Source of the DNA: a virus
Length of the DNA stretch: 35,672 nucleotides
Direction: 5' to 3' (one strand)
Virus record (IMG/VR): IMGVR_UViG_3300025910_000023
Location: 1-35,672 of that record
Made by a program: the position numbers and the translations under genes. Below the pieces are notes generated by a model. That model was not told the DNA's origin, searched no databases, and worked only from the letters and a program-made list of their open reading frames with translations. This document shows positions 4,566 to 35,672 of the stretch, piece by piece. The first letter of the stretch is position 1. Each line of letters starts with the position of its first letter.

Positions 4566-5668
4566 CGTATACCGTCCGCGCCTACACGTTCCAACCGAAG
4601 GAACCCCCGATCGAGATCAAGCTGTGGGACGCGGGCGCGAATGCGACCGACTACGGCGTGCATCTGTGGACGGAGCGCAGCATGCGCACGGTCGGCGGGA
4701 CGTACGAGGCCCGCGGGAACCTTCTTCAGCTCGATGTTGAACACAACGGCGCCGAGCCCGCGGACCCCGCCAATCCCCCGCCGACGGCGGGCTACGCGCG
4801 CCTCGAATTGCGCGCCGGCGAGCCTTGGCTTGTCTTCGACTGGTCAGCCTACGCCGTGGATCAGATTCGCTCGGGAATGAGGCGGTACCTATCGCCCGAA
4901 TACGAGGTTGACAAGGCGACGGGCGAGATCGTGCGTCTCGTTCGCGTCTCATTGGTCGGGGATCCGGCCACGCATAACGCACGGATACTCGCGGCCGCCG
5001 AGCGGATCCGCGCGATGGGAGGTTGCATGGATCCGAAACTGATTGCCGCTGCATTGGACGCGCTCGTCGCGGGAGACGAGGGCAAGTGCGCCGAGATCCT
5101 CAAGGGTCTCATTGCGCAGGCCGCGGGGGCCGGCGCGGCTCCGGCGGGCGGGGACGTTCCCGAAGCGGCCGCGGCTCCCGCGGCAGACATGCCGCCCGCG
5201 ATGGCGCCGGCGGCCGGCGGCGGTGACGCTCCGCCCGAGGAGGAGAAAGCCATGGCAGCTGCGAAGCCGTGCCCGGTCGCCGCGACCACACCGAAGCGGG
5301 ACCCGCTCGAGGACGTCAAGGCGCGCCTCGACTCGTTCGAGCGTGACGCCATTCTCGCGAAGCATGGCGCCAGGCTCACCGAGGGCCAACGCGTGTGGGC
5401 GTCGAGCCAGCCCGTCGCGGTCGTCAAGGGTCTCGTCGAGGCTTCGCCCGAGCCCGCGAAGTCGACGGCCACGAAGGCCGGCACCCGCGGCGCGACGGCC
5501 GGCGGCAAGGCAAGCGCCCTGCCCCCGGAGGAAAAGGCCGCGCTCGACGCGCGAATGGGGATCACGCGAATCGTGGCCGGCGTGAATCGCACGCCCACGC
5601 GCGTGACCTTCGGCGTCCTCACGCGCGACGACGCCGTGAAGATCCTCGCTTCCAGGAAGGTGGCTTGA
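4562..5668 (+). CDS. Prohead protease-scaffold, Mu I-like
   Basis: The 368-residue protein starts at GTG 4562 (GTGA overlap with the portal). The N-terminal ~155 residues match Mu I-like capsid maturation proteases: NLLQLDVEHN carries the likely catalytic His, and MRRYLSPEYEVD followed by TGEIVRLVRVSLVGDPATHN is the characteristic second block. The C-terminal half is Ala/Pro-rich linker plus helical, charged sequence, as expected for a scaffold. In Mu the same frame also gives the scaffold Z from an internal start, and an equivalent start is present here at 5027. The enzyme should cleave scaffold and capsid N-termini during prohead maturation. A longer open frame upstream (from 4100) is a shadow of the portal gene. 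Confidence 0.88.
   Translation: MTYTVRAYTFQPKEPPIEIKLWDAGANATDYGVHLWTERSMRTVGGTYEARGNLLQLDVEHNGAEPADPANPPPTAGYARLELRAGEPWLVFDWSAYAVDQIRSGMRRYLSPEYEVDKATGEIVRLVRVSLVGDPATHNARILAAAERIRAMGGCMDPKLIAAALDALVAGDEGKCAEILKGLIAQAAGAGAAPAGGDVPEAAAAPAADMPPAMAPAAGGGDAPPEEEKAMAAAKPCPVAATTPKRDPLEDVKARLDSFERDAILAKHGARLTEGQRVWASSQPVAVVKGLVEASPEPAKSTATKAGTRGATAGGKASALPPEEKAALDARMGITRIVAGVNRTPTRVTFGVLTRDDAVKILASRKVA
5017..5022 (+). promoter_or_regulatory. Internal Shine-Dalgarno for nested scaffold
   Basis: GGGAGG lies four bases before an in-frame ATG at 5027, inside the protease gene. It is a near-perfect anti-16S match and stronger than most sites in this window. Its position, at the protease/scaffold boundary, argues that it is functional. 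Confidence 0.7.
5027..5668 (+). CDS. Nested scaffold protein, Mu Z-like
   Basis: An in-frame internal start would give a 213-residue protein consisting only of the scaffold half: MDPKLIAAALDALVAGDEGK, an Ala/Pro/Gly linker, then charged helices (DVKARLDSFERDAILAKHGA). The expected role is to template capsid assembly and then be degraded by the full-length protease. The basis is the strong GGGAGG site and the known Mu I/Z and lambda C/Nu3 arrangement. A second in-frame ATG at 5252 is also preceded by AGGAGGAG, but that run encodes Glu codons and may be coincidental. Confidence 0.65.
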   Translation: MDPKLIAAALDALVAGDEGKCAEILKGLIAQAAGAGAAPAGGDVPEAAAAPAADMPPAMAPAAGGGDAPPEEEKAMAAAKPCPVAATTPKRDPLEDVKARLDSFERDAILAKHGARLTEGQRVWASSQPVAVVKGLVEASPEPAKSTATKAGTRGATAGGKASALPPEEKAALDARMGITRIVAGVNRTPTRVTFGVLTRDDAVKILASRKVA

Positions 5669-13463: not shown

Positions 13464-13978
13464 ACCCCTTCCTAGACGATCCCGATCTGTACGACTTTCC
13501 TCGCATCGCAGATAAGAGAAGTCCCCTGCTCACGGATGTATCGGGGGCAACCTCCCCTAGACATTGGGACGAAAAGAAGGGCTACGGGCTGTCGGGCGCG
13601 ACGCTGGTCTACACGGGGGACGGGCTCGCGAAGCCGGTGCTTCGGTTCTTCGCGTGGCGGCCGGAACACTTCGTCGCGTGGGAGCCCTTCCGCACGATCG
13701 TCGCCAAGCCGCCGTCGGGCGCGAAGCCCACGGCATTCTCTATCGAGCACCCCTTCCTCGCGGAGCTTGGGATCGTGTCGGTCGTGGTCGAGGACGAAAC
13801 CATGTGGACGCAACAGGACGCTGGGCTCTACACGAAGGACGTCAAGCTGATCCAGTGGCGTGAATCCAAGCCCGCACTCGGGAAGCCGACAGCAACGCAG
13901 TGGATGCAAGCGCCGGCGCAATCGGCGGCAGACAAGGCAATCGACGACCTCGTGAAGCAGGTAAAGGCGCTCGCGTGA
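13460..13978 (+). CDS. Putative baseplate/tail-tip protein
   Basis: The 172-residue protein starts at ATG (ATGA overlap) with GGGGG upstream. It lies between the tape measure and the hub/spike gene once the HNH gene is removed, a slot for tail-tip or DNA-circularisation-type proteins. Visible features are an aromatic stretch (HWDEKKGYGLSGATLVYTGD), FAWRPEHFVAWEPF, a block around VVVEDETMWTQQDAGLYTKD and a C-terminal helical tail (ADKAIDDLVKQVKALA). I do not recognise the family; the role is positional. Confidence 0.55.
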   Translation: MNPFLDDPDLYDFPRIADKRSPLLTDVSGATSPRHWDEKKGYGLSGATLVYTGDGLAKPVLRFFAWRPEHFVAWEPFRTIVAKPPSGAKPTAFSIEHPFLAELGIVSVVVEDETMWTQQDAGLYTKDVKLIQWRESKPALGKPTATQWMQAPAQSAADKAIDDLVKQVKALA

Positions 13979-15240
13979 CCGAATTTCTGACGCTATCAGG
14001 CCGCAAGGGGACGTCCGTTGTCGTGCGCGTGACATCGACTGGCCCGTGGGTCGCGGATGTCGACCTCGAGGGCGATGTAGCACTCACGGGCGCGGTGGAG
14101 CTCCGCATCGGACCCCTGACACTTGTCGGCACCGTCGATCCGGAATTCTCGGGCGCGTTTCAGAAGCGCTCGCGGTGCCGCGTCGTCGCCGGCGCGAACG
14201 GATGGCGCACGACGGTCGCGGAGCTCCACTACCACAACGACGCGGAGATCAACCTGTCACAGGTGCTCGGCGATGCGGCTAGCCTCGTCGGGGAAACGCT
14301 CACGGTCCAGGCCGGCGCCGATCGCTCGATCGGGATCGACTGCGCGCGCGAGCTCGGCGCAGCCGCCGACTTGTTCGATCAACTCGGCGCCTCGTGGTGG
14401 GTCGGCTACGACGGCGTGACCGTGGTCGGAACGCGCCCGGTCGCGGACGCGGCCGCAGGCGTGGAGCTCCTCACGTTCGACCCACTGGAACGTGTTGCGA
14501 CGGTCGCCGCGGACGACCCGCGCGCCGTCACGGTCGGCACGCGGCTCAAGTCGCGGCTGGATACCCCGATGATCGTCCGCGAGCTGGAGTTGACGGTGCA
14601 GGGTGCCGCGGTCCGGTTCACGTGCTGGTGTTCGGACGACGACGCGAGCGCGCTCGGGCGCCTCGAGCGCGGCCTCCGCGCCCTCACGCGCGACACCCGG
14701 CGGCGGTACTCGAACATCTACCGGTATCGCGTGGTCGACACGATCGCCGGCGACGGTCCGGGGTCGGGGCGCTTGCTCCTCCAGGCCGTCCGCAAGGGCG
14801 CCGGGCTCCCGAACATGATCGCGGTGTCGATCTGGCCGGGCATGGCGGGCCTGTCCGCGGGGCACGTCCCCGGGAGCATCGTCCTCGTCGCGTTCGTCGA
14901 GGGCGACCTTACGCTCCCGGTCGTCGTCCACTTCTCGCCGAAGGGCGAGCCCGGCGCGCTCCCGACGAGCTCCACGGTTGACGCGTCCGACGTCGTGAAG
15001 GTCGGTCCGACCACGGACGAGGTAGTGATCGGGGACAACGCCAGCCGCGTCGAGGTCGCCGGCGGGCCCGATCCGCTCGTGCTCACCGGCGCCCAGGCCG
15101 TTGGGCGCGTGGTTCGGTATGGGGACTTCCTATACCTGCCCTCGCCCCTTCCGAGCACCCCGATCCCGGTGATCGCGGCCCCGAACCCGGGCGACCCCCC
15201 GGGCTGGCCCCTGGGCGGGCCCTCCAAGGTGTCCGCGTGA
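13975..15240 (+). CDS. Baseplate hub-spike protein
   Basis: The 421-residue protein starts at GTG (GTGA overlap). Residues 1-245 form a hub-like beta-rich region (DLFDQLGASWWVGYDGVTVV). Residues 250-320 form an OB-fold-like block: RYRVVDTIAGDGPGSGRLLL, then SIWPGMAGLSAGHVPGSIVL and VEGDLTLPVVVHFSP. That block matches Mu gp45/P2 V/VgrG spike bases. The C-terminus (330-421) is repetitive Thr/Val/Asp then Pro-rich, perhaps a short spike stem. So hub and spike, which Mu has as separate gp44 and gp45, appear joined in one chain. It should sit at the tail tip and pierce the envelope. Confidence 0.75.
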   Translation: MTEFLTLSGRKGTSVVVRVTSTGPWVADVDLEGDVALTGAVELRIGPLTLVGTVDPEFSGAFQKRSRCRVVAGANGWRTTVAELHYHNDAEINLSQVLGDAASLVGETLTVQAGADRSIGIDCARELGAAADLFDQLGASWWVGYDGVTVVGTRPVADAAAGVELLTFDPLERVATVAADDPRAVTVGTRLKSRLDTPMIVRELELTVQGAAVRFTCWCSDDDASALGRLERGLRALTRDTRRRYSNIYRYRVVDTIAGDGPGSGRLLLQAVRKGAGLPNMIAVSIWPGMAGLSAGHVPGSIVLVAFVEGDLTLPVVVHFSPKGEPGALPTSSTVDASDVVKVGPTTDEVVIGDNASRVEVAGGPDPLVLTGAQAVGRVVRYGDFLYLPSPLPSTPIPVIAAPNPGDPPGWPLGGPSKVSA

Positions 15241-15728
15241 GCTTCACCGACGGCCTCACCCCGGTCTTCCTCGAGGCGCTGGACGTCGCGGGGACCGACT
15301 ACGCCGCGTCGCTCACCGCGCCCCCCGTCGTGCAGATCGTCGCGACGGACGACCTCGGGCGCGATCTGTCGTGCTCGTCCGATCTCACCGATCTCATGCT
15401 GGACGTCGACGAGATCACCGCCCTGGCTCAGGCTGTGTTCCGCCGGATCACCACACCCCACGGAATGGTGATCGATGCGCCCGACTACGGGCGCGACCTC
15501 CGGGAGCTCCTGTCGAAGGGGCTCACCGCGGCCGAGCGGGACTCGTCCCTGACGCTGTTTCGCGCGGAGATCCTCAAGGACGAGCGGATCGAGGAATGCA
15601 TCATGACCGCGACGTTCGTCGGGGACTCGGGGATCGTCACAATGGCGTGCAAGTCCTCGCTCGGGCCCTTCAAGTTCACGTGTGACGTGTCCGCCGCGGA
15701 GGTTCTCATGTCAGAGGTGTCCTTCTAA
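15237..15728 (+). CDS. Baseplate wedge protein, gp25/Mu gp46-like
   Basis: The 163-residue protein starts at GTG (GTGA overlap). The core DLTDLMLDVDEITALAQAVF, followed by RRITTPHGMVIDAPDYGRDL and LTAAERDSSLTLFRAEILKD, is the gp25-like/DUF2634-type signature (conserved GRDL after an aspartate-rich turn). This protein starts sheath polymerisation at the baseplate. It overlaps the J-like gene by one base. Confidence 0.8.
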   Translation: MSFTDGLTPVFLEALDVAGTDYAASLTAPPVVQIVATDDLGRDLSCSSDLTDLMLDVDEITALAQAVFRRITTPHGMVIDAPDYGRDLRELLSKGLTAAERDSSLTLFRAEILKDERIEECIMTATFVGDSGIVTMACKSSLGPFKFTCDVSAAEVLMSEVSF

Positions 15729-16894
15729 TGGCGCTCCCGCTCGACGTCCTCACGCGGCCGATCACGCGCGACGAAGCGAAGACGAAGATCTATTCAATGC
15801 TCGCGCTCACGGGCATTAACACAACCGCGTGGCAAGAGGGCGCGGTTACGCGGACGATCATCGCGATACTCGCGGCCCTGCTCGCGGGACTGACGAGCGT
15901 CCTCGCCTTGCTCGTGCGCGGGCTGTTCCTCGACCTCGCGGAAGGGATTTGGCTCACCCTTCTCGCGCTGTACGTCTACAACGTCGTCCGTCGGGTCGCG
16001 ACGTTCGCGTCGGGGAGCGTGCTCCTCACGAACAACGGCGGGGGCGTGTTCAACAACGTTCAGCCTGGCGGGTTGATCGTTCAGAACCCGACCACGAAGA
16101 AGACCTACACGAATACGGCGATCTTTTCGCTCGCGGCGGGGCCCGGCACGACCGCGACCGTCCCCGTGCGCGCTATCGAGGCCGGTTCCGCCAGCACCTC
16201 GAGCGCCGGCGCGATCACCGCGTTCGTTACGACGTTCCTCGGGGTGACCTGTTCCAATGCCGCGCCCCTCGTGGGGCTGGACGAGCAGACCGATCCGTCG
16301 CTCCGCCAGGCGTGTCGCGATTCGCTAGGCGCCGCGTCGCCCGCGGGTCCGCCGTCGGCCTACGACTACTTCGCGAAGCGGGCGCCGCGCGCGGACGGCA
16401 CGATAATCGATGTAACCCGTACCAAGGTGGTCCCTAGCAACGTCAACCTCGTAACGGTCATCGTCGCGAACGCATCCGGCACGACGATCAGCGCTCCGGA
16501 CCTCACCGACATTCAGACCTGGCTCGCGAAGAACGCGCTCCCGACCGGACAAACCCTAGTCGTGCAAAGCGCAACCGGCGTGTCGATCTCGTTCGTCGGA
16601 ACACTGTGGGTCGCGGCCACTACGGCCAAGAGTGACGCCGAATTCCGAGCCCAGGCCGACGCGCGGTTGCAGGCGTACCTCGCCGCGGTCCCGATCGGCG
16701 GCCTACAGAAGGTCTCGGGCACAGGGAAGGTCTTCGTCGACGCCCTGGAGGGGCAGCTGTTCCAAGAGTTCACCGATCTGGTGGACGTCGATCTGTCCTC
16801 GCCGACCGGCGACACGACCCTGACGTCAACCCAGGTGCCCACGTTCGCCGGCGGCGGGATGTCGTGGACCATTACGCGGGTGGTGCAGGCTTGA
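15728..16894 (+). CDS. Baseplate J-like wedge protein
   Basis: The 388-residue protein occupies the gpJ/Mu gp47 position after the gp25-like gene. Typical J features are an N-terminal helical segment, a beta-rich middle (PGGLIVQNPTTKKTYTNTAI), the ADGTIIDVTRTKVVP...VTVIVANASG domain and the C-terminal NRASA-like helix (EFRAQADARLQAYLAAVPIG). An unusual hydrophobic run (IIAILAALLAGLTSVLALLV, about 45-64) would look like a membrane helix. It forms the wedge rim of the baseplate. Confidence 0.85.
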   Translation: MALPLDVLTRPITRDEAKTKIYSMLALTGINTTAWQEGAVTRTIIAILAALLAGLTSVLALLVRGLFLDLAEGIWLTLLALYVYNVVRRVATFASGSVLLTNNGGGVFNNVQPGGLIVQNPTTKKTYTNTAIFSLAAGPGTTATVPVRAIEAGSASTSSAGAITAFVTTFLGVTCSNAAPLVGLDEQTDPSLRQACRDSLGAASPAGPPSAYDYFAKRAPRADGTIIDVTRTKVVPSNVNLVTVIVANASGTTISAPDLTDIQTWLAKNALPTGQTLVVQSATGVSISFVGTLWVAATTAKSDAEFRAQADARLQAYLAAVPIGGLQKVSGTGKVFVDALEGQLFQEFTDLVDVDLSSPTGDTTLTSTQVPTFAGGGMSWTITRVVQA

Positions 16895-18196: not shown

Positions 18197-20061
18197 GCCT
18201 CGTTCACTACCTAGACGTCCTGTTCGGCGCGGGCATTTGGCAGAATGCCACCGTAGACGTCACGCAAGCCGGTAAGTACAATATCGTTGCTGGCGCGACC
18301 GCGACCTACAATTCCGCGACCGGCGCGGTGGATCTCACGTTCACGGCCGCCGACGGCGGTGCGTCGCTCGGGGTCGCGGACCTCGCGGCGCTCCGGGCGA
18401 TCGGCCCGAGCTCGCGCGCGGACAAGCAAAGCCGCAACGTCAAGAGCGACGGGAACGGGAACCCGGCGGCCTACTTCTTCGACACGGGTTTCGGCGCCGG
18501 CGTGGCCGACGACGGCGTGAACTTGATCAAGCCGACCGACCTGTCCGTCGGGTCCGCCGGCCGGTGGCGCCGCAACCCGCAGATCACGACCGGCGCCACG
18601 CCGGACACGTACGTAGGGCGCGACGCGAACGGCATCATCCAGTCGATCAAGTCCGCAATCGGCGCAGCCTTGATCGTGGGCGAGCAGCTGCGCAACTCGT
18701 CGGCCGCCGGCGCCGGCGCGCAGCAATACTCGCCAGCGTTTGAGTTCTCGGGGTCCGGGTGGTCCACCGGTGCGAGCGCCGCGCGCGCCCTCGATTGGTC
18801 CGTGCAGCAACGCGCGACGCAGGGCGCGGAGCCGACGAACGAGCTCCACTTCCTCGCACAAGCGGCGGGCGGGGGCTGGGTGGACGGCCCGCGGTACGAG
18901 TACTCGGTCGCGGGCGGGAGCGGGCTCAAGTGGGGCGCGGCGGCGGGCGCCGTCGCGATCGGCCAGGACCCGGCGACGTCGGGCGCCGGGGCGGCGTGGT
19001 CGCTCCGGGGGCAGAAAGGGTTTACGGGTTCCGTCGGTGGCGCGCTCACGATCGGCGGCGGGGACGGCGGCACGCCGGGGACGAATCTCGCCGGTGACAC
19101 GAACGTAGAGCTAGGGCAGACGGTCACCAGCAACTCGGCGGCATTCAACTTGAAGGCCGCGGGGTCCACGTTCGGGCGGCTGTCGAGCAACGGATCCCTG
19201 CTCATTGAATCGGTGGCACAGGCGCTGACACTATCCAGCGCGGGGCAGCTGACGATCCAGTCTCCCGCCGGGCTCACACAGATTGAGGCTACCGGCGACC
19301 TCTACCTGAGTTCCCTCCAAGCGTCGCCCAAGTTCCACTTCCGGGGCAGCGGAGATAACGAGGTCCGGACCGAGACCCTGCCGCATACCGGCGCCTGTAC
19401 AGTCACGTACGCGATTGGCGTCACATCGGTCACTTGTTCCCAGGCCGACCAGACCGCGGGCAGCACGAATGGCGCGCAGCACACGTACCGCGCCCAGAAC
19501 GCCACCGGCGCAACGAGCACTGGCGGCAAGGCGACGCTACAAGGCGGCGGCGGCACGACCGCCGGCGGCGCCGCGGAGCTCACCGGCGGATCCGGGATCA
19601 CCAACGGGAATGGTGGGAACGCCACGATATCCGGCGGGGTCAAGGCCGGCTCTGGTGTCGACGGCAACGTCGATCTCAAGACGGGCTCCACGTCGAGGCT
19701 ATTGGTCCAGCCTACCCTCGTCCAGGTGCTGGCGTCGCAATTCCAGCAAGTCAAGGCGGGGCCTACCAATTCGACGAGCAACTACACGTTCGATTGCACG
19801 TTGGGCAACATCCACGAAGTTACGATGGTCGGCAACATTACGGCCCTGAACTTCGGCACACCGAAGACGGGTGCCGTGTACGTGTTCGTGTTCATCCAGG
19901 ATGGCACCGGCTCGCGCACGCTCAGCGTCCCCACCAACCTCAAGGTCGCGGGGGGCGCGTTCACCCTAACGACCACGGCGGGCAAGTATGACATGCTCAC
20001 CTGCTACTACGACGGCACCAACATGCGCGAGACCTGCCGCGCAATGAATGTGAGCGCCTGA
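18193..20061 (+). CDS. Tail fibre protein
   Basis: The 622-residue protein starts at an ATGA overlap. Its Gly-rich low-complexity stretches (GGGTTAGGAAELTGGSG then ITNGNGGNATISGG), many Ser/Thr and a compact C-terminal region ending KYDMLTCYYDGTNMRETCRA are typical of trimeric tail fibres. The N-terminus, which should bind the baseplate, has VHYLDVLFGAGIWQN. The C-terminal ~110 residues may be the receptor-binding knob. No enzyme motif is seen. It likely pairs with the tailspike at 20061 for host recognition. Confidence 0.7.
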   Translation: MSLVHYLDVLFGAGIWQNATVDVTQAGKYNIVAGATATYNSATGAVDLTFTAADGGASLGVADLAALRAIGPSSRADKQSRNVKSDGNGNPAAYFFDTGFGAGVADDGVNLIKPTDLSVGSAGRWRRNPQITTGATPDTYVGRDANGIIQSIKSAIGAALIVGEQLRNSSAAGAGAQQYSPAFEFSGSGWSTGASAARALDWSVQQRATQGAEPTNELHFLAQAAGGGWVDGPRYEYSVAGGSGLKWGAAAGAVAIGQDPATSGAGAAWSLRGQKGFTGSVGGALTIGGGDGGTPGTNLAGDTNVELGQTVTSNSAAFNLKAAGSTFGRLSSNGSLLIESVAQALTLSSAGQLTIQSPAGLTQIEATGDLYLSSLQASPKFHFRGSGDNEVRTETLPHTGACTVTYAIGVTSVTCSQADQTAGSTNGAQHTYRAQNATGATSTGGKATLQGGGGTTAGGAAELTGGSGITNGNGGNATISGGVKAGSGVDGNVDLKTGSTSRLLVQPTLVQVLASQFQQVKAGPTNSTSNYTFDCTLGNIHEVTMVGNITALNFGTPKTGAVYVFVFIQDGTGSRTLSVPTNLKVAGGAFTLTTTAGKYDMLTCYYDGTNMRETCRAMNVSA

Positions 20062-25385: not shown

Positions 25386-26119
25386 GGACGCGACGCTTCG
25401 CGGTCGCGGTCGCGAGCGATCTCCACGTCGGGTCAATCTACTGTCGAACCAAGGCGATCCGGGACTTCATAGACACCGCATACGAGCGCGGGATCCGGAA
25501 CGTGCTCATGCCCGGTGACAACCTCGACGGCGAGTACGAGAACCACGGCCGGTACGAGCAAACCCACGTTGGCGTCACGAAGCAGACCCGGGCGTTCCGG
25601 TCGGTCCTGCCGCAACGCAAGGGACTGCGATACGACGCGATCCTAGGCAACCACGAGCACACGTTCCACGAATCGTCAGGGCTAGACGTTGCCGACTACA
25701 TTAATACGCAATTCCGCGCGGCGGGCCGGAAGGACCTCACGGTACACGGGGCGCGTGAGGCGTTCCTCCGCGTCCACGGGATCGATATCTGCCTCTGGCA
25801 TCCGCGCGGGTCGTTCTCACAGCTCGCGATGCGGAAGCAACTCCGCGGGCTCGCGCCCGGGCTCGCCCCGCGGTTCATGTTCACGGGACACTGGCACGTG
25901 TTCGACCGCGTGCGTGAAGGCCGGTGCGAGGCGTTTGCGTGCCGCTCGTTCCAGGGTGGTGGCGGCGATTTCGGGAATAGCCTCCCCGGCGCAACGACCG
26001 TGGGCGGGCTGATCGTTTCGTGGGCCGTCGACGGACACGGTGAACCCCACTCAATCCACGTCGAGTGTCACGACTACCCCGAGCCCGTTGCGGATCCGGT
26101 CGTGGAGATCACCGCTTGA
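25382..26119 (+). CDS. Calcineurin-like metallophosphoesterase
   Basis: The 245-residue protein starts at TTG (TTGA overlap). The metal-binding motifs are complete: SDLHVG (D13, H15), GDNLDG (D46), GNHEHTF (N90, H91), a WHPRGS block and GHWHVF near the C-terminal third. This is the binuclear metallophosphoesterase fold acting on phosphomono- or diesters, nucleotides or nucleic acids. The substrate cannot be inferred. Phages carry such enzymes in nucleotide metabolism, RNA repair or counter-defence. Here it lies inside the lysis cassette, between the endolysin candidate and an acetyltransferase-like gene. Confidence 0.8.
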   Translation: MRTRRFAVAVASDLHVGSIYCRTKAIRDFIDTAYERGIRNVLMPGDNLDGEYENHGRYEQTHVGVTKQTRAFRSVLPQRKGLRYDAILGNHEHTFHESSGLDVADYINTQFRAAGRKDLTVHGAREAFLRVHGIDICLWHPRGSFSQLAMRKQLRGLAPGLAPRFMFTGHWHVFDRVREGRCEAFACRSFQGGGGDFGNSLPGATTVGGLIVSWAVDGHGEPHSIHVECHDYPEPVADPVVEITA

Positions 26120-26607
26120 CGCTGCACGCCTGCCCCATGACCCGAGACCAGGCAAACGCCTACATCGTGGCGCATCATCGCCACCACGGACGTGTGACCG
26201 GTCACCGGTTCATCATCGGCGCGGAGCTCGGCGGGGCCCTCGTGGGCGTAGTGGTCGGGGGCCGGCCCCGTGCGCGGCTCGTGGAACAGTACCGCCACGT
26301 GGAGGTGTCCCGACTCTGCTCAGCCGGGGCGGACAACGTGTGCTCGTTCCTCTACTCGCGTGCGGCTCGGGTCGCGCGAGAGATGGGATTCGCGTCGGTG
26401 TTCACCGCCATCCTGGCGAGCGAGACCGGCGGCAGCTTGCGCGCGGCGGGCTGGATGTATGCGTACACGACCCGCGGCGGATCGCAGGACCGTCCTAGCC
26501 GTCGCCGGGTAGACAAGTCCCCGATTGAACCGAAACAGATCTGGTGTCCGGTCTGGTGTCTCGATGTCGTGCGCGGTCACAACGCAACGCAGGCGGCGCT
26601 CTCTTGA
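26116..26607 (+). CDS. XF1762-like protein, possible GNAT fold
   Basis: The 163-residue frame begins at TTG (TTGA overlap). An ATG seven codons on (26137) gives a 156-residue protein with the XF1762-like pattern: ANAYIVAHHRHHGRVTGHRF, a beta strand VGVVVGGRPRARLV, then VSRLCSAGADNVCSFLYSRA and ETGGSLRAAGW. These phage and prophage proteins resemble N-acetyltransferases (GNAT) in topology, and Mu Mom, which modifies DNA, belongs to that broader fold. No substrate is shown here. Neighbours suggest a role in phage-host interaction rather than assembly. Family recall is moderate. Confidence 0.55.
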   Translation: MTLHACPMTRDQANAYIVAHHRHHGRVTGHRFIIGAELGGALVGVVVGGRPRARLVEQYRHVEVSRLCSAGADNVCSFLYSRAARVAREMGFASVFTAILASETGGSLRAAGWMYAYTTRGGSQDRPSRRRVDKSPIEPKQIWCPVWCLDVVRGHNATQAALS

Positions 26608-27128
26608 CCTCCGTCCTCGACCGCCTGATCGACCTACTCCTCGCCGCGTGGCGTTGGCTCGTCCCTTGGGCGGTGCTGGCGGACGATCAGGTCGGGTTGA
26701 TTCGCCGCCTAGGCGTCACGCATCGGATCATGCGCCGGGGCTGGAACTGGAAGCTCCCCATCGTCGAGGAAGCCCTCGAGGTCTGCTCGGCGCTCGACAG
26801 CACGGCCCTACGGGAACAGTCCCTGACGACGATCGACGGCGCCCAGGTAACCCTACGATGCGTCCTGACGTACCGGGTAGTGGACCCGAAGCTTTGGATC
26901 ATCGAAGTCGAGACGCCGCAAACGGTGCTGAACGACGCCGGATGCCTGGCCGTCTCGGAGCTCGTGTCCGAGCTGAACGCGGACGAGGTTCTCCAGGGCC
27001 CCGAGTTCCTGATCAAGCTCGCGCGCCGCGTCCGCGCTCGCGGCCGGCGGTTCGGTATCGAGGTCCTGTCCGTCGGGTTGGCCGATCGCACGACGGCCCC
27101 GACGATCCGGCTCCTCGGGAAGGACTGA
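26604..27128 (+). CDS. SPFH/band-7 domain protein
   Basis: The 174-residue protein starts at TTG (TTGA overlap). A short hydrophobic N-terminus (LIDLLLAAWRWLVPWAVLAD) is followed by the SPFH core: VGLIRRLGVTHRIMRRGWNW, KLPIVEEA, then LREQSLTTIDGAQVTLRCVL with TYRVVDPK. This is the band-7 pattern of membrane scaffold proteins such as stomatins and HflK/C. It lacks the long C-terminal coiled coil of those proteins. It may sit at the inner membrane and organise or guard it, possibly regulating lysis or protecting against host proteases (inference). A second lipoprotein-like frame begins at its stop. Confidence 0.7.
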   Translation: MTSVLDRLIDLLLAAWRWLVPWAVLADDQVGLIRRLGVTHRIMRRGWNWKLPIVEEALEVCSALDSTALREQSLTTIDGAQVTLRCVLTYRVVDPKLWIIEVETPQTVLNDAGCLAVSELVSELNADEVLQGPEFLIKLARRVRARGRRFGIEVLSVGLADRTTAPTIRLLGKD

Positions 27129-28892: not shown

Positions 28893-29972
28893 TTACGGCT
28901 CCGCGCCAGGGTGTCCGCCAGACTTTGGCGGCGGGGCGAAGTTGACCGCGTTCCTAGCCCGGTCGAGATGGTCTGGCAACAGGTGGCTGTAAAGCTCTGT
29001 CACCCGGGTGTGACTGTGCCCCATGACCTTGGCCAGGAGGAACATGTCTGGGCACCTGGCGAGGAAGGCAGACGCATACGTGTGCCGCGTCGAGTGGGGG
29101 CCGCCCTTGAGCTTGGCCTCGTCCCGGACGTGGTTGAATCGGTCCTTGGGGAATTCTGCGAAGCGGCCCCCTCCCCTTGTCTGGAACACGTAGGTGCCGT
29201 CCTCTGGCGGCAGGAACTCCAGCGCGGCTGACGGGAGAGGGACCTCCCTCGGCTTCCCGTTCTTGGGGCGCCAGACATCGTTCGACGGGATGCGCAGCAT
29301 GCTGGCCTGCCGGTCTACCCACGACCACTCCGCGGCGATGGCCTCGCCCTTGCGGCAGCCCGTGTTGACGAGGAAGACCAGGATGCGCAGGAGCTCGGGG
29401 TCCTCGCTGGCACAGACGGCGAATAGCCGGCCGATCTGTGTGGGCGTCCAAACGTGCACCCGACTCGCGCCACGGACGGGCAAGCGCTTCCACTTCGTGG
29501 GTGCCGTCGGGTAGCCCTGCTCCGCTGCGTAGTTCATGACGGTCCGGAGCACGCGCAGTTCGTTGTTGATGCAGCCAGGCTTGACGGGCTTGTCCCGCCA
29601 CGTCGCGGCAAGCCGCTTGGACTTGTAGTCCTCGATGGCCGCGGGCGAGAGTGCCGTGAGCTTGAGGCCCCCGAGGATGGCGCACAGGGTCGCGACCTGG
29701 TACCGGCGAACCTTGCGCCAGGTGTTCTCTCGGAGGTGTGTCTTCGCATGCGGCGTGTAGACCTCAACGCAGAAGTCTCGCAAGGTCGGTGCGACTCTCG
29801 TGCTCGGCCTGGCTGCTTCCAGCCGGATCCGCTCGCGTGCTTCGAACGCGCGGGCCTCGGCCTTCGTCCCCTGAACGATCTTCTCGTGTTGCTTTCCGTT
29901 CGCAAACACCGTCACCCGGTGCGTGCCCGGGGTCCTGCCCGGATAGATCGGCATCGGCCTCGAACATACCAC
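28893..29972 (-). CDS. int: Tyrosine recombinase integrase
   Basis: The 359-residue protein has an N-terminal arm-binding region, a core-binding SAM-like domain (about 62-160) and a catalytic domain. Catalytic residues are visible: Arg207 in NTGCRKGEA, His293/Arg296 in HSTRHTYAS, His319 in MGHSHTRVTELYSH and the nucleophile Tyr328; Lys240 may be the beta-hairpin lysine. Start choices are GTG 29972 or ATG 29954 (MPIYPGR), the latter with GAGG a few bases upstream. It integrates and excises phage DNA. Its first part overlaps the excisionase frame. It is the last gene of the leftward unit from 31082. Confidence 0.93.
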   Translation of the reverse strand: MVCSRPMPIYPGRTPGTHRVTVFANGKQHEKIVQGTKAEARAFEARERIRLEAARPSTRVAPTLRDFCVEVYTPHAKTHLRENTWRKVRRYQVATLCAILGGLKLTALSPAAIEDYKSKRLAATWRDKPVKPGCINNELRVLRTVMNYAAEQGYPTAPTKWKRLPVRGASRVHVWTPTQIGRLFAVCASEDPELLRILVFLVNTGCRKGEAIAAEWSWVDRQASMLRIPSNDVWRPKNGKPREVPLPSAALEFLPPEDGTYVFQTRGGGRFAEFPKDRFNHVRDEAKLKGGPHSTRHTYASAFLARCPDMFLLAKVMGHSHTRVTELYSHLLPDHLDRARNAVNFAPPPKSGGHPGAEP

Positions 29973-30114
29973 GCAAGGCGTCGGACGAGATCCGCCACCG
30001 GCGCCCGACCTTGACCGCCCGGATCCTCCCCTGCCTACAGAGCTGGACCACGGTCGAGACGGGCACCTGCAGACGCTCGGCGGCTTGCTCCGGGGTGAGG
30101 ATCATGGTTTGCAC
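29764..30114 (-). CDS. Excisionase-type helix-turn-helix protein
   Basis: The first ~50 residues are a clear excisionase/MerR-like HTH_17 domain: MILTPEQAAERLQVPVSTVV, then QLCRQGRIRAVKVGRRWRI and SSDALRGMF. This is the pattern of Xis and related small DNA-binding proteins that bias integrase to excision. The remaining ~60 residues overlap the integrase start in another frame and look like a readthrough tail, so the real functional length may be shorter or the two products may be coupled by frameshifting. ATG 30114 is three codons upstream of the domain, and ATG at 30105 is an alternative. Confidence 0.75.
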   Translation of the reverse strand: MQTMILTPEQAAERLQVPVSTVVQLCRQGRIRAVKVGRRWRISSDALRGMFEADADLSGQDPGHAPGDGVCERKATREDRSGDEGRGPRVRSTRADPAGSSQAEHESRTDLARLLR

Positions 30115-30502: not shown

Positions 30503-30735
30503 GGCGTTCCCCGCAGATGCCGGACCCCCGCCTGCCACAGCGCCCGTGCAAGTGGGTGCGGATCGGTCACCGGTAGGGCGAAGTGGTCGCGTCGGCGCAC
30601 GACCGACTCGACGATCGCGGCGTACGTGACGTCTTCGGGGTAGGCCTGGGCCAGGTTCCGCGCGAGCTCGTCGGCGCGATCGTCGGGAAGGAAGGAAGCT
30701 GCCGCGGTGCGGAGGACGTTGAGGAGGTTGATCAT
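30499..30735 (-). CDS. Hypothetical early leftward protein B
   Basis: The 78-residue protein starts at ATG overlapping the upstream stop (ATGA). It is helical with two amphipathic segments (INLLNVLRTAAASFLPDDRA, ELARNLAQAYPEDVTYAAIV) and a C-terminal basic region. No motif is recognised. As part of the early leftward operon it may affect host functions or recombination; this is unknown. Confidence 0.6.
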   Translation of the reverse strand: MINLLNVLRTAAASFLPDDRADELARNLAQAYPEDVTYAAIVESVVRRRDHFALPVTDPHPLARALWQAGVRHLRGTP

Positions 30736-31082
30736 ACCGACTCCTGGTACACGCGGACCGTGGCGGCGTTCTTGGCCGCGGCTGCGCGCCGTTCACGTTT
30801 GATCGCATCGGGCAGGTCGGATGCCGGCGGCATCGCCTCGAGCGAAGTAAGCAAGATCAAGATAACCCTGTCCCGCGCGCGACTCCGACGGAGCTCCCAG
30901 AGCCCATCCAACGCCGTTTGCACAGCGTTAGGGGCGCCGGTCAGGCGTTCACGCTCGGTCTTGGTGGCGGCGATCCAGACGCGGCGCTCACGCGCGGCGG
31001 GGCACCACGTATCGCAGTGCCAACGGTTACCGTGGCGGAAGCACTTCGAACTGTGTCGCGGCAGGAAGTCGGTGCGGGTCAC
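30732..31082 (-). CDS. Hypothetical early leftward protein A, Cys/His-rich N-terminus
   Basis: The 116-residue protein begins at GTG 31082, the first gene of the leftward operon, right at the end of the conserved promoter element. The N-terminus has C-x2-H-x3-H-C-x2-W-C (CFRHGNRWHCDTWC), a possible zinc-binding cluster, followed by basic helical sequence. GGGGA lies adjacent to the GTG, so the message may be leaderless or nearly so. The family is unknown. Being first in the operon suggests an early regulatory or host-takeover role (inference). Confidence 0.6.
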   Translation of the reverse strand: MTRTDFLPRHSSKCFRHGNRWHCDTWCPAARERRVWIAATKTERERLTGAPNAVQTALDGLWELRRSRARDRVILILLTSLEAMPPASDLPDAIKRERRAAAAKNAATVRVYQESV

Positions 31083-31125
31083 TCCCCGTAGATGTGACTA
31101 CCGGATCAGTTGTCAACCGGATAAC
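31081..31125 (-). promoter_or_regulatory. Left promoter-operator, TTGACA with palindromic operator
   Basis: On the minus strand this 45-base element begins with GTTATCCGGTTGACAAC (31125-31109). The 17-base operator is an imperfect palindrome, GTTATC-N5-GACAAC, holding a consensus -35 TTGACA. It shares 39 of 45 bases with the rightward element at 31502-31546. The -10 is weak: CATCTA lies at spacing 16. It abuts the repressor stop and drives genes 31082 to 28893. Repressor binding here is inferred from the symmetry and from the two-copy layout. Confidence 0.75.
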
Positions 31126-31485
31126 CTAGCCGGTATGTTCGCGCGAGCGGCGCGGGACATATAGGTCTAGGTCTTCCTCCGACATGCGCTCCTCGAGGTA
31201 ATCCAGGAGAACCGGTAGCGACAGTTTGCAAGCCGAGGCCAGCCGACGATGCCCCCGAAGAGAGTCAGGGATTTCCCGGCGCCCCGCCTCCCACGCCGAG
31301 ACGTTCGTGTTGGAGGTGCCGAAGGCCGCAGCCACATCCTCTTGACGAAGGTTGCAGCGATTTCGCAGTGCACGCAGTCGCATCCCCATCTGGTGCCACC
31401 TTTCTTGTCGTTCCGGCATGGTCATCAGAGTTTGCCCTACCCCGGGGGTCGGCCGCAAGAACTGTCCGCTTCTCTTATCAGCCAT
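31126..31485 (-). CDS. XRE/Cro-CI family repressor
   Basis: The 119-residue DNA-binding protein has a helix-turn-helix at about residues 37-80 (LRALRNRCNLRQEDVAAAFG, then TSNTNVSAWEAGRREIP). It is HTH-only, without a peptidase or cleavage domain, unlike LexA-like CI. The start ATG 31485 has GGGAGG six bases upstream (31491-31496). It lies between two opposed, near-identical promoter-operators, as CI lies between OL and OR in lambda. It likely represses both units during lysogeny. An additional half-site GTTATC overlaps its own ribosome-binding site (31486-31491), which could allow autoregulation. Confidence 0.85.
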   Translation of the reverse strand: MADKRSGQFLRPTPGVGQTLMTMPERQERWHQMGMRLRALRNRCNLRQEDVAAAFGTSNTNVSAWEAGRREIPDSLRGHRRLASACKLSLPVLLDYLEERMSEEDLDLYVPRRSREHTG

Positions 31486-31501
31486 GTTATCCTCCCGATC
31501 A

Positions 31502-31546
31502 GTTATCCGGTTGACAACCTAACCCGTAGGCACATCTTCGGGGAGT
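31502..31546 (+). promoter_or_regulatory. Right promoter-operator, paired copy of the left element
   Basis: GTTATCCGGTTGACAAC (31502-31518) is identical to the reversed left copy and carries TTGACA. Conservation continues through GTAG-x-CACATCT to GGGGAGT (39/45 identical), covering the -10 and start region. Transcription should run right into the sigma factor at 31618 with a leader of about 75 bases. Both sites should be occupied by the same repressor. Confidence 0.75.
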
Positions 31547-31617: not shown

Positions 31618-32370
31618 ATGGATCTCCGCAGGACCATCGAACGTATCGCCCCGCTAACAGACCTGGAGTCCGGGCTCGTGACCCTCGCCCAGTCCGGCGA
31701 CCGCAAGGCGCGCCGACGGGTCGCGGAGGCGTATCTGAACCTGGTCTGCGCCATCGCTGTAGAGATCTGCCCCGACCCCGAGGACATCGACGAAGCAGTT
31801 GCGGAGGGGTCGATCGCGCTGATAACCGCCCTGGACCGATTCGACCCCGCGAAGGACCGGCCCTTTGCTTCGTTTGCCCGGGCATGGATCGAGGGCGAGA
31901 TCCGCCGGTGGGTGCTAGAAAACAGTGGCGCCCGCCGCCTGCGACGGGGCGCTCGAGGCGCACAGCGTAACGAGTTCATTCCAGCGCCGCCCTATACGTC
32001 CCTCGACGCTCACCTGCCCGGCTCCACCGCGGATGTATCGACGCTGCACGACCTCCTCCCGATCGGCACCGGGGCAGACACGACGGAGATCAACGCCCGT
32101 CCCGTCCCGAGCGCGGAGGACATGGTGCTCGCGCGCGAAGATGTCGGAGACCACATGCGCAGTCGCATCGGCGAAGCACTCTCCGGCCTGACTCCGTACG
32201 AGCGTGAAGTTATCGAGCGGACGATCATGGCAGAGGAGCCCGTCTCTCTGCAAACCATCGCGACCGAGCGCGGTGTGTCTCGTCAGATGGTGGACAAGAC
32301 GCAAAAACGTGCCCTCGCGAAAGTGGCTGAGCACCGCGGCCAGTCGAAGCGTCCCGAGGCAGCGGCGTGA
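31618..32370 (+). CDS. Sigma-70 family RNA polymerase sigma factor
   Basis: The 250-residue protein starts at ATG 31618 with AAGGACGG upstream. The frame is open further back, but the coding begins after the operator. Region 2 is at 31-103 (AYLNLVCAIAVEICPDPEDI, then EAVAEGSIALITALDRFDPA, FASFARAWIEGEIRRWVLEN), the core of sigma-70. A short linker follows, then region 4 at 183-238 (LSGLTPYEREVIERTIMAEE; IATERGVSRQMVDKTQKRAL). It should bind host RNA polymerase and direct it to phage promoters. As the first gene of the rightward unit it may switch the phage to its next transcription phase. It is a complete sigma, unlike the partial gene at 1891. Confidence 0.88.
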   Translation: MDLRRTIERIAPLTDLESGLVTLAQSGDRKARRRVAEAYLNLVCAIAVEICPDPEDIDEAVAEGSIALITALDRFDPAKDRPFASFARAWIEGEIRRWVLENSGARRLRRGARGAQRNEFIPAPPYTSLDAHLPGSTADVSTLHDLLPIGTGADTTEINARPVPSAEDMVLAREDVGDHMRSRIGEALSGLTPYEREVIERTIMAEEPVSLQTIATERGVSRQMVDKTQKRALAKVAEHRGQSKRPEAAA

Positions 32371-33217: not shown

Positions 33218-33531
33218 AGCTCCGGCCGTTGCTCGAGGCGATCTACGCCTGCGATGCGGCGCTTGATTGGGTCGGCGGGCGGACCGTGTGCGAGCGGACA
33301 TACGAAGCTTGTCCCCATGGGGACTGGCTTACGTTCATCCTGGACAGGGCCTACGCCGACGGTGTGCTGACGGCGCGGGAGGAGTGCGACCGGATGCGGA
33401 TGTATCGTCACCGGATGCGGATGTATCGTCAGGACCAGGACCAGGACCTTTCGATCGATGTCGTCCGCAAGGCCTTCCCGTTCCGTCGCTTCGAGCGGAT
33501 CGTCAAGCGCCTCGCAAAGGCGGTCCTGTGA
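33214..33531 (+). CDS. Hypothetical protein with duplicated basic block
   Basis: The 105-residue protein starts at ATG 33214 (ATGA overlap). It begins with MKLRPLLEAIYACDAALDWV and DWLTFILDRAYADGVLTAR, followed by RMRMYRHRMRMYRQDQDQD, a duplicated Arg/Met block, and a terminal basic helix (VRKAFPFRRFERIVKRLAKA). The 21-base duplication is exact (33390-33431). The family is not recognised. Homologues of this start pattern may exist in Polyangiales phages, but I cannot confirm this. Confidence 0.55.
   Translation: MKLRPLLEAIYACDAALDWVGGRTVCERTYEACPHGDWLTFILDRAYADGVLTAREECDRMRMYRHRMRMYRQDQDQDLSIDVVRKAFPFRRFERIVKRLAKAVL
33390..33431 (+). repeat. Perfect 21-bp tandem duplication
   Basis: CCGGATGCGGATGTATCGTC plus A occurs at 33390-33410 and again at 33411-33431, in frame, adding seven residues. 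The following GGACCA repeat extends the low complexity. Confidence 0.9.
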
Positions 33532-33686: not shown

Positions 33687-33939
33687 GGACATCGACATCG
33701 CCCGGCGCTTCGGGCTCGTCGTCGCGACGCGGGACATGGGCCCCTGTGCGCCGCGGGTGCCCCGGCCGTCCCCGGTGACGGCGGCGCGTTGGACCTGGAG
33801 ATTGGATGTCTGCCGCCGGGTGCCGAACGGGCGCAAACCCCCGCGGCTCCGACTCGTCCGCGTCGCGGAGGGCCCGCCACTGAAGCACGCCTTGCGCTTG
33901 AAGGGGATTCGAAAGGTGAGAGGAGCCTGGACATGGTGA
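33673..33939 (+). CDS. Hypothetical basic protein
   Basis: The 88-residue frame starts at ATG 33673, inside the previous gene, and is strongly Arg/Pro-rich (RRVPNGRKPPRLRLVRVAEG). Its end overlaps the next start by seven bases. Such composition can be coincidental in GC-rich DNA, but it is preceded and followed by coupled genes and fills an otherwise empty stretch. No function is seen. Confidence 0.4.
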   Translation: MAPRRDIDIARRFGLVVATRDMGPCAPRVPRPSPVTAARWTWRLDVCRRVPNGRKPPRLRLVRVAEGPPLKHALRLKGIRKVRGAWTW

Positions 33940-34607
33940 TTGATCGAGCAACGGCACGTAAGGTAATCGACACCGTAGACGCGGGGCTAACCGCCGGCGT
34001 CGGACGCCCGGAGCCCGGGAAGATGTGCGTGGAGGCGGCCGTGTGCTTCGCCATGGGCCTCGACCATGGCGACAATCCCCCCTGCGTCGGGCGCTCGGTG
34101 CGAAACTTCAAGATCAACCTGAACGACGCCCGATGGTCCTCCGACACCGCGCGGGCGGCCGGCATGCGAGGGCTCGCGGTCGCACAGCTCGGTTCGGACG
34201 AAATCGATCAACTCGCCTTTGCCCGCGAGGTGGCGACCGAGACGATCCGTCGCGTGCTCCCGATGTTGCCTGGGATCCCAGCCGAGCTCGCAAAGCGTTG
34301 CGCTGAAGATCCGACGGCCAACACGGCACGTGTGGTACGGCAATGGGCCGCCAACGCCGCCTACGCCGCCGACGCCCCCGCCTACGCCGCCAACGCCGCC
34401 GCCGCCGCCGCCAACGCCGCCTACGCCGCCAACGCCGCCGCCAACGCCAACGCCGCCGCCAACGCCGCCGCCGACGCCGCCGACGCCGCCGCCAACGCCG
34501 CCGCCAACGCCGATCCGATCCTGCTCGTCGCTGCGGACATCGGATTGCAAGCGCTGATCAAGCTCAAGTCTCCGGGGTGCGAATTCCTGGACATGCTGAT
34601 TGCGTAG
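33933..34607 (+). CDS. Ala-rich repeat protein
   Basis: The 224-residue protein starts at ATG 33933 with AGGAG about eight bases upstream. The N-terminal ~130 residues have MCVEAAVCFAMGLDHGDNPP and FKINLNDARWSSDTARAAGM, a pattern I recall in hypothetical proteins from Polyangiales. Residues 139-193 are an Ala-rich tract of AANAAYAAD-like repeats, followed by a short C-terminal cap (LLVAADIGLQALIKLKSPGC). The repeat may form a long Ala helix or coiled layer. This N-terminal domain could be host-derived. The function is unknown. Confidence 0.65.
   Translation: MVIDRATARKVIDTVDAGLTAGVGRPEPGKMCVEAAVCFAMGLDHGDNPPCVGRSVRNFKINLNDARWSSDTARAAGMRGLAVAQLGSDEIDQLAFAREVATETIRRVLPMLPGIPAELAKRCAEDPTANTARVVRQWAANAAYAADAPAYAANAAAAAANAAYAANAAANANAAANAAADAADAAANAAANADPILLVAADIGLQALIKLKSPGCEFLDMLIA
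34347..34511 (+). repeat. GCC-rich nonamer tract in Ala-repeat gene
   Basis: The 55 codons are almost all GCC interrupted by AAC, TAC or GAC, giving imperfect GCC-GCC-xAC units. It is open in other frames (Pro-rich) and, on the minus strand, Gly-rich, which explains false ORFs. Slippage could change its length. Confidence 0.85.
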
Positions 34608-35455
34608 CTACTCCGCGTCGTCCCTGACGACCGCCGCCGCTTGTCTCCGCAAGTTCGGGTTCAAGTACATCGCCGGCCTCGAGGAGCCCTCGGGTCCGGC
34701 CGCGGCATTCGGCACGGAGTTCCACGCCCGCCGCGACCGGTATCTCCGCGGTGAGGAGGTGCCCGACCTCGAGCGGGAGGGACTCGAATACCTCCCCGCG
34801 CCGAACACGCCCGGTCTCGAGATCGAGCGCGAATTCGGCATCGTGATCCGCGGCGTGTGGTTCACGGGAAGAAAGGACTTCGAGCTCCCCGGCATCGTCG
34901 GGGACCATAAGACCGGGACCGAGTTCCGCTACACGCCCGGGAAGCTGAAGAAGGACTGGCAAGCGAACCTATACGCCGCGGAGTCGATGCACCGCGCGGG
35001 TGGCGCGCCGGCCGTGGAGTTACATTGGATCTGCTACCGCCGCGCATGCCCCCCCGATTGCGGTCGAAGGCATGTGGAGCATTACACGGAGCCCGCCGCG
35101 AAACCCGTCGTCGTCACGGTCACGCGCGCCGACGTCGCGCCCGTGATCGAGGAAATGCACGAACTCGCGTCGATCCTCGCGGTCCTCGAGGACGCCGGGG
35201 CCGAACCGCTCGACCTGCCGCCGTCGCCCGCCGCTTGCGATGACTTCGGCGGATGTCCGTACATCGATCTGTGTCCGACCGTTGAAAGGCTTTTCCCTAT
35301 GGCCCAGACTCCCGAAGAAGTTCTCGCCGCGATTCGCGCGCGCAAGGGCGTTAACCCGCCCGCACCGCCGCCCGCGCCTACGTTGGTGCTCACGCCGGGG
35401 AATGGGGGCGCGCCTGGAACGCCCCCGCCGCCGAAGGCCCCGGAGTGGCAGGCGT
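34600..35455 (+). CDS. PD-(D/E)XK nuclease with Fe-S cysteines, 3' end lost
   Basis: The start is TTG 34600, eight bases inside the previous gene's end. The RecB/Cas4-like nuclease core is visible: GTEFHARRD (His42), GRKDFELPGIVGDHKTG with Asp93, Asp102 and Lys104, then QANLYAA (Gln121, Tyr125). The four-cysteine set C15, C213, C219 and C225 (CDDFGGCPYIDLC) would hold a 4Fe-4S cluster, as in Cas4 and AddB. It would cut or resect DNA ends, fitting phage recombination or replication. After about residue 285 the frame enters foreign antisense DNA, so the true C-terminus is missing here. Confidence 0.85.
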
Positions 35456-35672
35456 CCATGACCAGCAGCACCTGCTGGAAAAACGTGCCGATGAAGATGA
35501 TCAGCAGCTTCTGCACATCGCCGGTGCCCGCCCACAGGATGGTGAGCGGCACAAAGGCCACGACCGGCATGTAGCGGATGAAATCGACGAAGGGTTCAAT
35601 TGCTGCTTCCCAGCGGCGGTAGCTGCCGATGAGGATTCCAACGGGCAGCGCCACGATGGTGGAGATGAAGAA
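35451..35672 (-). CDS. ABC transporter permease fragment, NitT/TauT type
   Basis: Reading leftward from the window edge, the frame gives FFISTIVALPVGILIGSYRR, then AIEPFVDFIRYMPVVAFVPL, TILWAGTGDVQKLLIIFIGT and FFQQVLLVMD. This is the membrane core of SsuC/TauC/NrtB-type permeases for sulfonate, nitrate or taurine. It is a fragment open at the window edge and cut at about 35451. The DNA has visibly lower GC than the phage. It is not a phage gene; it is either contaminating/chimeric or host DNA next to a junction. Confidence 0.75.

Follow-up and report, generated by a model that had tools for sequence, protein, structure and literature searches.

The right arm of this virus probably carries an immunity (lysis-lysogeny) switch, in which a single XRE repressor would act on two duplicated, outward-facing promoter-operators. 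The window (the whole stretch of 35,672 nucleotides, which is a single IMG/VR virus contig) contains two near-identical 45-base elements in opposite orientations, and the sole gene between them, on the minus strand, encodes a 119-aa XRE protein. The interval between the elements is 376 bp and the centers of their dyads lie 393 bp apart. The region comprises the following features:

28893 to 29972, minus strand: tyrosine integrase of the left unit (PF00589, 53 bits; phrog_1, E=5e-54).
29764 to 30114, minus strand: excisionase-type HTH gene of the left unit (HTH_17, 54 bits; TIGR01764 above cut-off).
30732 to 31082, minus strand: first ORF of the left unit (from the ORF list).
31081 to 31125, minus strand: putative left promoter-operator element, reading left into the excisionase/integrase unit (39/45 to the right copy).
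31109 to 31125, minus strand: 17-bp dyad GTTATC-N5-GACAAC, exact match, proposed left operator over the -35.
31126 to 31485, minus strand: putative XRE repressor (Cro/CI HTH) of 119 aa (HTH_31, HTH_3; no S24 domain).
31486 to 31502, plus strand: weaker operator-like site GTTATCCTCCCGATCAG (2 mismatches to the dyad pattern).
31502 to 31518, plus strand: 17-bp dyad, exact match, proposed right operator over the -35.
31502 to 31546, plus strand: putative right promoter-operator element, reading right into the sigma-factor gene (39/45 to the left copy).
31618 to 32370, plus strand: sigma-70 family sigma factor with regions 2 and 4, at the head of the right unit (PF04542, 50 bits; PF04545, 30.7 bits; phrog_351, TIGR02937 above cut-off).
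34600 to 35574, plus strand: PD-(D/E)XK (exonuclease-type) gene of the right unit (PF12705, 42 bits).

The initial annotation had described the two elements as identical at 39 of 45 bases, including the first 17, and the alignment of the left copy (31125-31081, minus) with the right copy (31502-31546, plus) gave the same figures. Positions 1-17 (GTTATCCGGTTGACAAC) are the same in both copies, mismatches are located at positions 18, 19, 21, 24, 29, and 37, and the likeness breaks off abruptly at both ends. As had also been described, the 17-mer is an imperfect palindrome, GTTATC-N5-GACAAC, that contains TTGACA; its half-sites (GTTATC/GTTGTC) share 5 of 6 bases. No inverted repeat in the right arm (28.0-35.7 kb) is longer than that formed by the two elements, and they also ranked first among the inverted pairs of the entire record (35,672 bases) in a composition-weighted scan, with a score of 57.2 against 35.0 for the next pair and a maximum of 28.1 for the mirror-repeat control. 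In three shuffled windows, the best 45-base inverted match reached 30, 30, and 29 identical bases vs the 39 observed. The scan for GTTRTC-N5-GAYAAC that had been proposed as a check was run over all 35,672 bases and returned two places without mismatch, both within the twin elements. The closest further match to the 17-mer in the record is 13/17, and no further exact copy was found in these 35.7 kb. Neither the exact 17-mer nor a looser pattern of the element yielded a match in IMG/VR, and the operator-like pattern matches from that collection were discarded as chance occurrences located inside a small coding ORF. The twin-element observation itself is confirmed.

Both elements carry a perfect -35 hexamer (TTGACA) within the 17-bp dyad. 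Their -10 sequences are far from the consensus, in agreement with what had been noted before: the best matches are the weak CATCTA in the left element and CATCTT in the right element, both at a spacing of 16 (combined score of the right element, p=0.005 in random windows). The mismatches between copies are concentrated in the presumed spacer (5/12 vs 1/33 elsewhere; Fisher p=0.003, the partition being post hoc). Under this post hoc partition, the diverged spacer (bases 18-29, 7/12 matching) and the conserved bases 30-45 (15/16 matching) form the pattern expected of a promoter under selection. The GTG of the ORF at 30732-31082 begins at base 44 of the left element, and the transcript of the left unit is therefore possibly leaderless or near-leaderless. 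On the right side, 71 bases separate the end of the element from the ATG of the sigma factor.

The weaker site at 31486-31502 adjoins the right copy and covers the ribosome-binding site and the start of the repressor gene. Because sites with two mismatches to the dyad occur at about 1e-4 per base, the probability of finding a third site so close to the right copy by chance is ~1%. This site is suggestive of a possible autoregulation of the repressor. Beside the repressor start, three TTATC half-sites are found in 33 bases (31475-31507); TTATC/GATAA occurs at 0.42 per kb genome-wide. A sigma70 promoter for the repressor was sought next to the right operator and not found; the only candidate is a GATAAC box that lacks a -35. 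The strongest sigma70-like match of the region is TTGTCA-18-TATGTT (31110-31139, plus), whose start lies in the left operator and whose direction is inward, antisense to the repressor gene; it covers the last codons of the repressor and may therefore be due to chance.

The protein encoded between the elements exceeds the curated cut-offs for Cro/CI-type HTH domains (HTH_31, 42 bits with a cut-off of 27, E=1.2e-10; HTH_3, 32 bits with a cut-off of 23), and its fold matches are of the XRE type. Its single-sequence AlphaFold model has a mean pLDDT of 73, with blocks at 87-92 in the helical HTH core, and resembles restriction-controller proteins (C.BclI), DdrO, and the lambda and P22 repressors. 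Among PDB sequences only the P22 C2 repressor was matched (best E=0.0037). Searches of Pfam and NCBIfam detected the HTH and no S24 domain, and no homologues of the protein were found in IMG/VR, GTDB genomes, or INPHARED.

Gene calls and family matches agree with the earlier description of the elements as flanking the XRE gene and facing an integrase unit and a sigma unit. The left element is followed by tightly packed ORFs, then by the excisionase, whose open frame overlaps with its end the start of the integrase. The first of these ORFs (30732-31082) presented no family above threshold in Pfam, PHROG, and NCBIfam searches. The phage encodes both an integrase and an excisionase (PF00589, phrog_1, TIGR01764), as in temperate tyrosine-integrase phages. 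The sigma factor that heads the right unit had no match in IMG/VR and only distant ones in INPHARED (25-40%). Sigma-70 region 2 was matched in one of 48 other virus records searched, G008, where the match (4437-4643) lies on the exonuclease side of the twin element, like in the window. Further along the right unit, the PD-(D/E)XK gene is 34% identical to a frame of G001 and is related to the gene adjoining the twins of G007, G029, G030, and G047. Its 3' end, from ~35450, falls in a foreign-looking contig end, in which a partial ABC-transporter permease (PF00528; 35450-35672, minus) is joined mid-frame to phage sequence; the right end of the contig is either host flank (attachment junction) or the end of a chimeric assembly. 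Several other observations were made in the window. The ORF at 33789-34607 holds a GC-rich array of 9/12-base repeats (34346-34510) that encodes a stretch rich in Ala-Asn/Ala-Tyr (AANAAYAAD...), and a perfect 21-base tandem duplication, ACCGGATGCGGATGTATCGTC, is found within an open frame at 33389-33430. After the virion genes, the stretch at 26065-27128 encodes a Band_7/SPFH protein (PF01145, above cut-off) next to a weakly matching Mom-like protein (PF25680, below cut-off).

Based on this arrangement, the 17-bp dyad of each outward promoter is the most likely target of the XRE protein (31126-31485). A repressor bound there would cover the -35 TTGACA and keep RNA polymerase out, so that both units would be silenced at once: on the left the small genes, the excisionase, and the integrase, and on the right the sigma factor and, further on, the exonuclease. 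The weaker third site over the ribosome-binding site of the repressor may tune its own production. Upon loss of the repressor, both units would fire and the released sigma factor would redirect the host polymerase towards phage genes expressed later. A loop joining the two sites is possible and would not be required, with one site per side, 393 bp between them, and a repressor devoid of a C-terminal oligomerization domain.

Alternatively, the conserved elements could be promoters read by the sigma factor that the phage itself encodes, or could depend on another activator, with repressor binding being secondary or absent. This would explain a conserved, non-consensus -10, and sigma would then act back on its own gene as well as on the integrase unit. 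Such a scenario is in line with the near-complete conservation of bases 30-45 (of the type GCACATCT.CGGGGAGT), which nevertheless hold no sigma70 -10, and with a sigma-70 family factor heading the right unit. We consider it unlikely, however: a consensus TTGACA is located within the dyad, a sigma target needs no dyad at all, the record offers no further copies of the element for the sigma factor to act on, and those relatives with the same layout (see below) in which no sigma gene was detected use ordinary sigma70-like hexamers.

As the collections contained no close relative of the repressor, we placed the phage by its terminase. Relatives of this protein in IMG/VR are mostly about 50-59% identical, and four others (40-54%) were found in MAG contigs labeled delta proteobacterium, Polyangiaceae, and Myxococcales. 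The portal-type protein presented a 29% match to Myxococcus phage Mx4. Together, the MAG-contig relatives and the Mx4 match make a host of myxobacterial type likely. The virion genes are common to the window phage and its relatives and the regulatory genes mostly are not; indeed, the sigma and XRE proteins of the window were undetectable in 15 terminase relatives.

We then scanned 34 records for inverted pairs separated by 150-3000 bases, leaving out simple repeats. An inverted, near-identical, AT-rich pair around an HTH gene was found in G007 (IMGVR_UViG_3300018476_000004), G029, G030/G031, G046, G047, and G048, with scores of 36-60; the mirror control reached 36 once in the 34 records (36.2). 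G030/G031 are one region in two records, and the strong pairs thus represent six distinct phages. Both arms of these pairs present sigma70-like hexamers at a spacing of 16-19, with the dyad over the -35 or the -10. The arms, including those of two more diverged pairs, read as follows:

G007 arm: GTTTATCCCAT[A/T]GACGTGATAAAC, then TATAAC or TATACC.
G029 arm: ATTATCTCATTGACG, then GATAAA in one arm.
G030 arm: T[T/A]GACTTTATAT[C/A]AAGTGC[A/G]CTTTATA.
G047 arm: CGTTGCTTTTATATAACG[T/C]GC[C/G]TTTTATACC.
G046/G048 arms: GCGGCGTTATAACGCCGC, containing TATAAC; a perfect palindrome in 3/4 arms.
G008 and G039, diverged twins: TATCnCnTTGACG or TAGACG.

G024 and G025 presented weak twins only. The pairs of G007 (38694), G023, G027, and G040 were set aside as simple repeats and the pair of G043 as GC-rich. 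We also set aside the region of G044 at 13676-15835 (L159), which has no repressor homologue inside: its four promoter-like long copies (TTTGACAAAA...TGATATCCT), found in both orientations, are another kind of regulation.

Where the neighbors of the twins were read, one outward side is occupied by a small, Cro-sized HTH-like gene. This gene has no Pfam match, so that it is Cro-like by position and look only. A PD-(D/E)XK gene lies directly outward on the other side in G007, G029, G030, and G047, and the repressor gene is oriented from the small HTH-like gene towards the PD-(D/E)XK gene wherever this was read. A two-round profile built on four of the repressors of the twin-flanked relatives identified 20 loci in 18 records. 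Strong twins are present in six of these 18 records, representing five distinct phages and including the G047 pair from the inverted-pair scan; G048 was missed by the profile and adds one further strong twin. The G047 repressor was recognized through the profile, having no match in Pfam, and that of G048 gives only a weak HTH match. Many relatives possess a homologous repressor without a strong twin, and the twin design is recurrent among the relatives, not universal. In G024, an ImmA/IrrE-type M78 peptidase (18949-19563, minus; L180) is encoded inside the interval, convergent with the putative repressor, which suggests that some relatives might be induced by proteolysis.

Across eight relatives, the similarity of the HTH domains was correlated with the similarity of the elements, which were picked by eye (Mantel r=0.57, p=0.0015, a correlation that does not control for shared ancestry). 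Because HTH similarity tracks element similarity, this result points to the enclosed repressor as the probable reader of the elements in these phages. The repressor of the window was not matched by the two-round profile of this family, and the argument for the window is therefore one of shared design rather than direct comparison. The claim of the initial annotation that one repressor shuts both promoters finds support in the anatomy of the window and in the same layout occurring in relatives with other operators, and we retain it as a prediction.

The relatives also bear on a further scenario, a recent duplication of a promoter region without shared regulation, which would leave one or both promoters unregulated. 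Although the likeness spans all 45 bases, non-operator bases included, the dyad was kept perfectly while the spacer diverged, and the repressors of the relatives are flanked by independent twin pairs of other sequence, making this scenario very improbable. Finally, the single gene between the repeats and the tyrosine recombinase gene nearby might suggest that the repeats are not operators but bound a mobile or invertible repressor cassette, as terminal inverted repeats or as recombinase sites. We give this hardly any credence, as the interval holds no transposase, each repeat extends into the 5' end of an outward unit and contains a -35 hexamer, and those of the relatives carry promoter hexamers and very different dyads around related repressors, unlike the ends used by one recombinase.

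A regulatory switch built on twin operators thus remains our preferred interpretation of the window. We can more tentatively speculate, with doubts outweighing our confidence, that related soil-myxobacteria phages share a compact module that has been respecified repeatedly: an HTH repressor inside two duplicated outward promoters with one operator each. The module of the window would gate a sigma factor, and lysogeny would be kept by withholding sigma, not by a cI/cro balance. The about five operator/HTH types seen, the one of the window included, might then constitute mutually blind immunity switches. A layout that recurs with operators changing alongside the HTH domain would provide ready-made repressor/operator pairs, would make immunity groups predictable from sequence, and would offer a simple test of joint specificity change with two operators and a repressor. 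In this phage group, such direct placement of a sigma factor under the repressor is unusual, given the single match (G008) among the 48 other records. A review of myxobacterial temperate phages covers the Mx phages of Myxococcus and does not mention operators (PMC6070905).

The switch had initially been called lambda-like, which holds only for the layout and the expected logic. In lambda, CI octamers bridge the homologous, tripartite operators OR and OL over a distance of 2.3 kb (PMC3708714). As in lambda, a repressor gene stands between two homologous putative operators over two predicted outward early promoters, integration genes lie on one side, and an exonuclease-type gene also falls under the predicted control. 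The comparison does not extend to four other properties: each arm of the window has one clear dyad instead of three operators, with the 2-mismatch extra site on the right only; the 119-aa repressor lacks the C-terminal S24 cleavage/oligomerization domain of the SOS-cleavable CI; the interval is 376 bp (393 bp between dyad centers) instead of 2.3 kb; and a sigma-70 family factor heads the right unit where lambda has cro. In its short length and absence of a cleavage domain, the repressor is reminiscent of gp33 of mycobacteriophage BPs (103-136 residues), which acts on palindromes located at early promoters and close to the promoter of its own gene, with five dispersed regulatory regions, in a system based on integration-dependent truncation of the repressor (PMC4557955). 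Unlike BPs, the window has two exact sites only, both beside the repressor, and the integrase lies downstream of one of them. The switches of G007, G029, G030, G046, G047, and G048 share with the window the inverted twins around an HTH gene, related virion genes and, where read, a PD-(D/E)XK gene outward on one side. They differ by their operator sequences, by a repressor family not detectably related to that of the window with the profile used, by longer intervals (about 1.0-1.3 kb compared to 376 bp), several of which include an additional convergent gene, and by the genes found in place of the excisionase and integrase, namely a small HTH gene and replication genes. The switch of the window appears to be a variant within known switch types, and the most substantial new finding is that the twin design recurs, with changing operators, within one group of phages.
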